DNA of 64,000 bases from Ovis canadensis (taxonomy: Eukaryota; Chordata; Mammalia; Artiodactyla; Bovidae). The notes beneath the pieces were generated by a model that did no database searches, was not told where the DNA came from, and saw only the letters and a program-made list of their open reading frames with translations. Each line of letters opens with the position of its first letter. Position 1 is the stretch's first letter. This document shows, in pieces, positions 47,060-48,430 of the stretch. The DNA is taken from assembly GCF_042477335.2 (NCBI RefSeq), contig NC_091262.1, positions 44,365,001-44,429,000 on the forward strand, written 5' to 3'. Made by a program: the position numbers and the translations under genes.

Positions 47060-48430
47060 AGGTCCCAGACTTCTTTATGGAAGAACATAGTGATGACTGA
47101 TGTGGGGATTAAAATCAAGAGCATCAGTGAACTTCACCTTCCCTTCAACAAGTTCCCCCAAACTCCCTGCCCCCAAACCCTTTGTGTTCCCAGTTCCTCT
47201 CTTAGTGAATGAAGAACTTAATCCCCCACCCCCCAGTACAAACCCACAGGATTCTCTCCCTAGCTCTCCTGTTCCTTTGCCCCCCATTCCTAGGAAGGGC
47301 AGGTCCTGTGGTTTGAATGCACGGGAGAGCCCAGAGCAGTGACAGACTCCTGGGGGAAAGGCCTCACCTTCAGGGAATGGGACTAAGGAGTACAGACAAG
47401 TGAAGTGAGGGCCCCCATATCCTGGGGTACCAAAATGGGGCCCTGCACCACAGGAAAAGGTATTGGTCCCCCTGAGAAAAGAGACCTCAAGGATTTTGCA
47501 GCAACCTCAAAATCCTCTCCTTGGGAATGAACAGTCATTGCTTGATTGTTAGCCGTTCTGGCGATGGTTGCAGAACCACATCCTTCTCAAGCCCAAAATG
47601 CTGGGCCACTAGGCTGCTGCAGGGTGGGCTTCAGGCACTGCAGGAAGCCTCTGTTCTTCCTGTTGCTGTCCAGGTTGCCTCTCACTCAACGCTCCATACT
47701 CATCTGCTTTCTCTTCCAGGCCTGCATGGGGCTTTCTGCCTTGCGTATCTCCTGCAGATTCTCATTCTTGTCAGTTTCCTCTACCCACCTCTGCAGCAGG
47801 GGCCACAGCTTATACATGTCCTTGAAACTGAGCCTCAAAGCCTCAAAACGGTAGATAGTAATTTAGCTGAACACATTCCCAAAGAGAACCCCTAGGGTGA
47901 GCCCCACAGCAGCCTGAGTAGATTCCAGGGTGATCCTCTTCTGCTTTACGAGCTTGGCAGATTGTTCGGGGGTTTTCTGAAGAGCTTTGATGTCCTGGGA
48001 CTCCTTGGGGTTCAGCTCCAGCTTCCTGTGCAGCTTCACGGCGCCAGCGGGGGCGGTGCAGGGCTCCGGAGAGGCTCCCTCGGAGCTGGGGTTGCTCTCC
48101 GTCCCAGCTCCTGTCTCGCCCTCAGGCTGAGGGGTCTCTGGGCCACCTTGGGGCACCAGCTCCACTCCAACCTGAGGGGCACAGGCAGTTCCTCCACAGA
48201 AGTCATAGGCCGAGAGCACAGAGTAAGCCCCCACACCTGAGCACCAGGCCCAACCCCCAGCCCCATCTCCCACCCAAGGAAGCCCCTGGAAGCTCATCCA
48301 GGTTCCTAGCCTGGCTTCAGCCCTCTCAGCCTGTCGCCTCCACCATGTGCTGGGGTAAGAAGGTAAAGTCAGAAGCCAGGTGTCCTGCTGTGGGGGAGGA
48401 ATGTGCCCCAAGCCTAGGGCCTAGGAAAAT
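47060..48430 (-). pseudogene. POU5F1: Processed POU5F1 (OCT4) pseudogene
   Basis: Read on the - strand, the sequence follows POU5F1 mRNA from the 5' leader through the coding region to the 3' UTR with no introns, so it is a retrocopy. Matches run in order. The N-terminal region has [12 protein letters not shown] and PQPEGE-like blocks (48290-48120). The POU-specific domain follows (about 48010-47740; [22 protein letters not shown]). The homeodomain is degraded (about 47700-47550). The C-terminal part shows GTPGYGG- and PFPEGE-like blocks (about 47440-47370), and 3' UTR similarity runs to about 47060. Breaks are clear: the start codon position (48391-48389) reads ACA; an in-frame TAA is at 47865-47863 just after the VFS motif; a TGA and frameshifts lie in the homeodomain; and about 9-11 nt are missing in the DNA-recognition helix. 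The remaining 182-codon open frame (48411-47863) uses a chance upstream ATG. A functional product is very unlikely. Confidence 0.93.

Follow-up and report, generated by a model that had tools for sequence, protein, structure and literature searches.

A disabled, full-length processed pseudogene of POU5F1 (OCT4) downstream of CRABP1 in Ovis canadensis

Results

We analyzed a 64-kb window of the Ovis canadensis genome (C18:44365001-44429000), by which we mean the whole stretch of 64,000 nucleotides. Its minus strand carries an intronless, full-length copy of the POU5F1 (OCT4) mRNA (48446-47058; Table 1), and a span of 47060..48430 proposed in an earlier note on this DNA came close to these limits. 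The copy lies about 9.4 kb past the last coding exon of CRABP1, on the opposite strand, much as the roughly 10 kb given before, and no other match to it was found inside the 64-kb window. Searches of the window for RNA families, for tRNAs and for IREB2 (provisional protein sequence, E 0.01) returned none. The reverse-transcriptase frames and SINE repeats, which we take to be BovB-like (LINE) and Bov-tA (SINE) elements, are consistent with a ruminant genome, and the description of the feature as a ruminant copy holds.

Table 1. Positions of the retrocopy, its parts and neighboring features within the 64-kb window.
Feature	Position	Strand	Basis or detail
Full-length POU5F1 (OCT4) processed pseudogene (retrocopy)	47058..48446	-	Single intron-free alignment to spliced parent mRNA
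5' leader-like segment of copy	48392..48446	-	
OCT4 start codon site, reads ACA	48389..48391	-	Compared with the real parent
OCT4 coding-like segment of copy	47311..48391	-	Stops at 48306-48308, 47863-47865, 47686-47688, 47549-47551
Residual frame, 182 codons, TTG start	47863..48411	-	144 codons from ATG at 48297
11-base deletion site, homeodomain recognition helix	47580..47581	-	Flanked in the intact gene by GTGG on either side
3' UTR-like segment of copy	47058..47310	-	Poly(A)-signal remnant ATAAAG at 47078-47073, then five A (47057-47053)
CRABP1, four coding exons, neighbor of copy	30984..37667	+	Provisional CRABP1 protein sequence; sequence at the exon boundaries; one exon frame carries a lipocalin domain
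SINE-type repeat, some 120 bases upstream of copy	48565..48765	-	17 other stretches of the window match it
Reverse-transcriptase frames (Pfam RVT_1), LINE type	15735-16706, 18469-19029, 62868-63521	+, -, - respectively	

Translated minus-strand pieces give OCT4 as their best match along the copy, far ahead of other POU proteins. Among PDB sequences, the piece at 48411-47863 matches human OCT4 with an E value of 1.2e-45, against 2.3e-5 for the best chain without an OCT4 label, and the piece at 47862-47689 reaches 1.1e-18, against 7.3e-9 for the next-best POU protein. The piece at 47506-47078 finds four OCT4 chains only (best E 5.3e-13), and OCT4 is the sole match of an N-terminal piece containing AGHLASDF, which is weak when taken alone (E 0.16). 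A stop codon splits the Pfam Pou domain across two pieces (profile residues 7-40 and 43-72), the first half scoring 26.4 bits, slightly below the cut-off of 27.

The assembly that contains the window (2.97 Gb, 42 contigs) also contains the parent gene, on C20, where five exons join into an OCT4 of 360 residues that ends at a normal stop. Whole-genome searching recovered the parent as five pieces and the window copy as one. Aligned to the spliced POU5F1 mRNA of its own species, the copy covers positions 1-1395 of 1400 in a single alignment with 18 indels, without an intron and at 15.6% divergence. The feature is thus a processed OCT4 pseudogene, intron-free and full-length, running on the minus strand from the 5' leader to the 3' UTR as first described. 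The copied mRNA contains exon 1 and is presumably of the OCT4A type. Comparison with a provisional bovine protein sequence gave a similar picture; relative to a provisional human mRNA sequence, the largest insertion in the copy is 12 bases. The first intron of the parent has an apparent GC donor instead of GT (about 1628-1632 of the parent segment), judged from the open-frame exon join alone. A sheep MHC paper lists POU5F1 together with a gene named C20H6orf136 (PMC4613773).

We see almost no chance that the copy derives from another POU gene or is a segmental POU5F1 duplicate that lost its introns. POU domains are indeed a feature of the whole family, but the match takes in both UTRs as well as the termini of OCT4, while other POU proteins give far weaker matches limited to the POU region. 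All four introns are missing together, which speaks against a segmental duplicate. Neither POU5F1-type introns nor a different POU gene that matches better was found.

The copy is disabled throughout its coding part. It differs from the parent at 212 of 1,356 aligned bases, an identity of 84.4% without gaps and 79.9% by BLAST with gaps. The absence of the start codon and the presence of stops, both claimed previously, are confirmed, the four stops falling at parental codons W29, Q181, R240 and K286, the first of them in a region of shifting frames. Nine frameshifting indels interrupt the coding part relative to the real parent (12 of 20 indels relative to the provisional human mRNA sequence). 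The small deletion reported in the recognition helix is also seen against the real parent, where it removes 11 bases from a stretch flanked by GTGG at each end. To judge by these lesions, the copy is unable to make OCT4. The 182-codon frame that the earlier note singled out exists only with a TTG start and shrinks to 144 codons from an ATG; its initial codons are off the OCT4 frame and it ends within the POU-specific domain. Its translation has no relatives in the plasmids, genome_contigs and viral_contigs collections, as expected for a mammalian gene.

The long near-identical blocks once suggested for the POU-specific domain and the C-terminus are not there. These parts are identical to the parent at 198 of 225 bases (88.0%) and 182 of 212 bases (85.8%), and the longest exact blocks measure 32, 22, 20, 19 and 18 bases. 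Differences between copy and parent at codon positions 1, 2 and 3 number 37/346, 53/349 and 74/349, compared with 18/361, 10/361 and 90/361 between the provisional human sequence and the parent. The CpG observed/expected ratio stands at 0.17 for the copy, at 0.157 and 0.089 for its flanks and at 0.424 for the provisional human coding sequence. Both comparisons speak for a decayed retrocopy. Synonymous changes in the copy (n = 57) exceed a simple random expectation of 43.6 (P 0.013), an excess that recurs in the four other retrocopies tested (C16, C8, C1a and C1b; P 0.005-0.039). Since all five copies share it, selection is a less likely cause than mutational bias or changes on the parent's side. 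A case for selection on C8 (20 synonymous changes against 11.7 expected, P 0.005) was dropped, as C18, C16, C1a and C1b behave alike (P 0.013-0.039).

A genome-wide search with the copy yielded at least 14 matches, comprising the copy itself, the five parent exons, seven matches that belong to six further retrocopies and a match on C3 that, at 46 bases, was set aside as too short to judge. Three of the retrocopies are OCT4-derived and intronless like the window copy, yet younger, at 96-98% identity to the parent (by BLAST, C16 95.9%, C8 96.0% and the two halves of C1b 95.8 and 97.9%). The other three, C1a (86.6%), C4 (3' part, 77.5%) and C1c (60.4%), share the same derivation and lack of introns and are described as older.

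Some of the young retrocopies retain long open frames. The C8 retrocopy (C8:58917500-58921900, about 1500-2850 of that segment) has a frame of 377 codons from stop to stop, or 357 from an ATG at the OCT4 start position, in which the homeodomain motif WFCNRR has Ser in place of Asn and a patch near the C-terminus is frameshifted; an annotation might call it an OCT4-like protein. The C16 retrocopy (C16:13315000-13319000, 1183-2561 of that segment) is stopped at codon 58, after which 301 codons stay open across the POU domain, which lacks one Trp, and the homeodomain; its flanks resemble a duplication, AAGACTTTTC. Some 1.2 kb of other DNA interrupts the C1b retrocopy (C1:268857500-268863000), and parent mRNA positions 480-493 occur on either side of it, as would follow insertion of a mobile element.

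The window copy branches deeply. In our tree it falls outside C1a and the young copies with a support of 90, or 94 once C4 and C1c, both fragments, are included, on a branch of 0.159 substitutions per site (0.150 with the fragments). Human is the sole outgroup, so the tree does not settle on which side of the human split the copy lies, and we used residue states with mouse instead (human OCT4 sequence partly checked, mouse OCT4 sequence provisional). At the 31 residues that differ between parent and human, the copy agrees with the parent at 15, with human at 9 and with neither at 5, and has a gap at 2, counts that alone would also fit a copy predating the split from human; the young copies C16 and C8 carry the parent residue at 28/31 and 29/31 of these sites. 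Mouse agrees with human at 16 of these sites, which places the change there mostly on the artiodactyl side. At these 16 the copy has the parent residue at 7, the human residue at 7 and another residue or a gap at 2, from which we conclude that its departure from the artiodactyl lineage came roughly midway through these changes.

With assumed neutral rates of 2.2-3e-9 per year, a branch of 0.159 corresponds to about 53-72 million years, and a cruder calculation that used the first two codon positions and the provisional human mRNA sequence gave 32-55 million years. By these rough estimates the copy would have left the artiodactyl lineage some 32-72 million years ago, which predicts that all pecoran ruminants, and perhaps whales too, carry it.

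Two hallmarks of retrotransposition do not show at the window copy, a point against such an origin. The copy ends 3' just past the remnant of the poly(A) signal, and its tail run consists of five A only. Target-site duplications are a usual sign of LINE insertion that fades with age, and are supporting rather than required. At the window copy, the target-site duplication score is at chance level, as 241 of 500 same-spacing controls and 161 of 200 shuffles score as well. Duplications were found by the same test for C16 (1/200 shuffles) and C1a (3/200); the young C8 has none (116/200 shuffles), and the match at C1b is mostly its A-run. The duplications at C16 and C1a make decay with age the likely reason for finding none at the window copy, and the result for C8 indicates that the test can miss.

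Discussion

We are highly confident that this locus holds a retrocopy of spliced POU5F1 mRNA that has decayed near-neutrally, gives no OCT4 product and is most likely without function. OCT4 is expressed in the germ line and early embryo. We propose that a spliced, full-length POU5F1 mRNA including exon 1 was reverse-transcribed and then inserted at this site, most likely by the LINE machinery and in the germ line or early embryo. Because the copy begins at about the mRNA start, it would have carried no upstream promoter along. Close-to-neutral decay after insertion would then have cost it the start codon, brought in stops and frameshifts and removed part of the recognition helix. No evidence of function was found for the copy in this sequence analysis, and most likely it does nothing.

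Some OCT4 retrocopies are also reported to act as RNA. Two papers describe pseudogene RNAs that silence OCT4 together with FUS and SUV39H1 (PMC7603346; PMC4510692), and the window copy has kept the full length of the mRNA. It is nevertheless very improbable that it is transcribed as a non-coding RNA regulating parental OCT4, in the manner of mouse Oct4P4 and human OCT4P3: beginning at about the mRNA start, it brought no upstream promoter along, and at 15.6% divergence its blocks of identity to the parent are short. We give even less credence to a version in which the ancient copy is transcribed in ruminant embryos or germ cells, tunes OCT4 as a non-coding RNA through its residual similarity and has had its RNA sequence kept for that reason.

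Retrocopies of OCT4 mislead expression work on pluripotent cells, and the earlier note had attached importance to this copy on that account. That concern carries over poorly to a copy that is 84.4% identical to the parent; diverged and without long identical stretches, it should not be a serious source of error for PCR, mapping or annotation. C16, C8 and C1b are more likely to mislead primers, mapping and annotation. As a by-product, the list of at least six other OCT4 retrocopies is useful for vetting OCT4 primers, probes and guides in this species.

Buffalo OCT4 pseudogenes were reportedly described by Singh et al. in 2012. Four expressed OCT4 pseudogenes are reported from buffalo (cited in PMC3334991), a report that would also favor transcription of the present copy, and OCT4 processed pseudogenes are documented in rabbit (PMC2751759), vole (PMC2410140) and mouse (PMC4510692). 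No description of this locus appeared among the literature matches listed, a set of titles and abstract beginnings from which most subscription journals fall outside coverage. The rabbit POU5F1 processed pseudogene EU191070 resembles the window copy in being intronless and in having its frame truncated and shifted by a deletion, and it is reported to be without expression in preimplantation embryos (PMC2751759). It differs in being 99% identical to the cDNA and in having poly(A) remnants and direct repeats (PMC2751759), whereas our copy, at about 84% identity, has no clear sign of either. Human POU5F1B (POU5F1P1) is likewise an OCT4 retrocopy, but it is predicted to encode an OCT4A-like protein, while the window copy is disrupted at many points. 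Mouse Oct4P4 and human OCT4P3 are also OCT4-derived, but both are described as transcribed, with a silencing function that was assayed (PMC4510692; PMC7603346), and a SUV39H1-binding element of 200 nt is placed at positions 984-1183 of mOct4P4 (PMC7603346). Set beside these, the window copy is an ordinary, old, dead retrocopy, a further example of a well-known kind.
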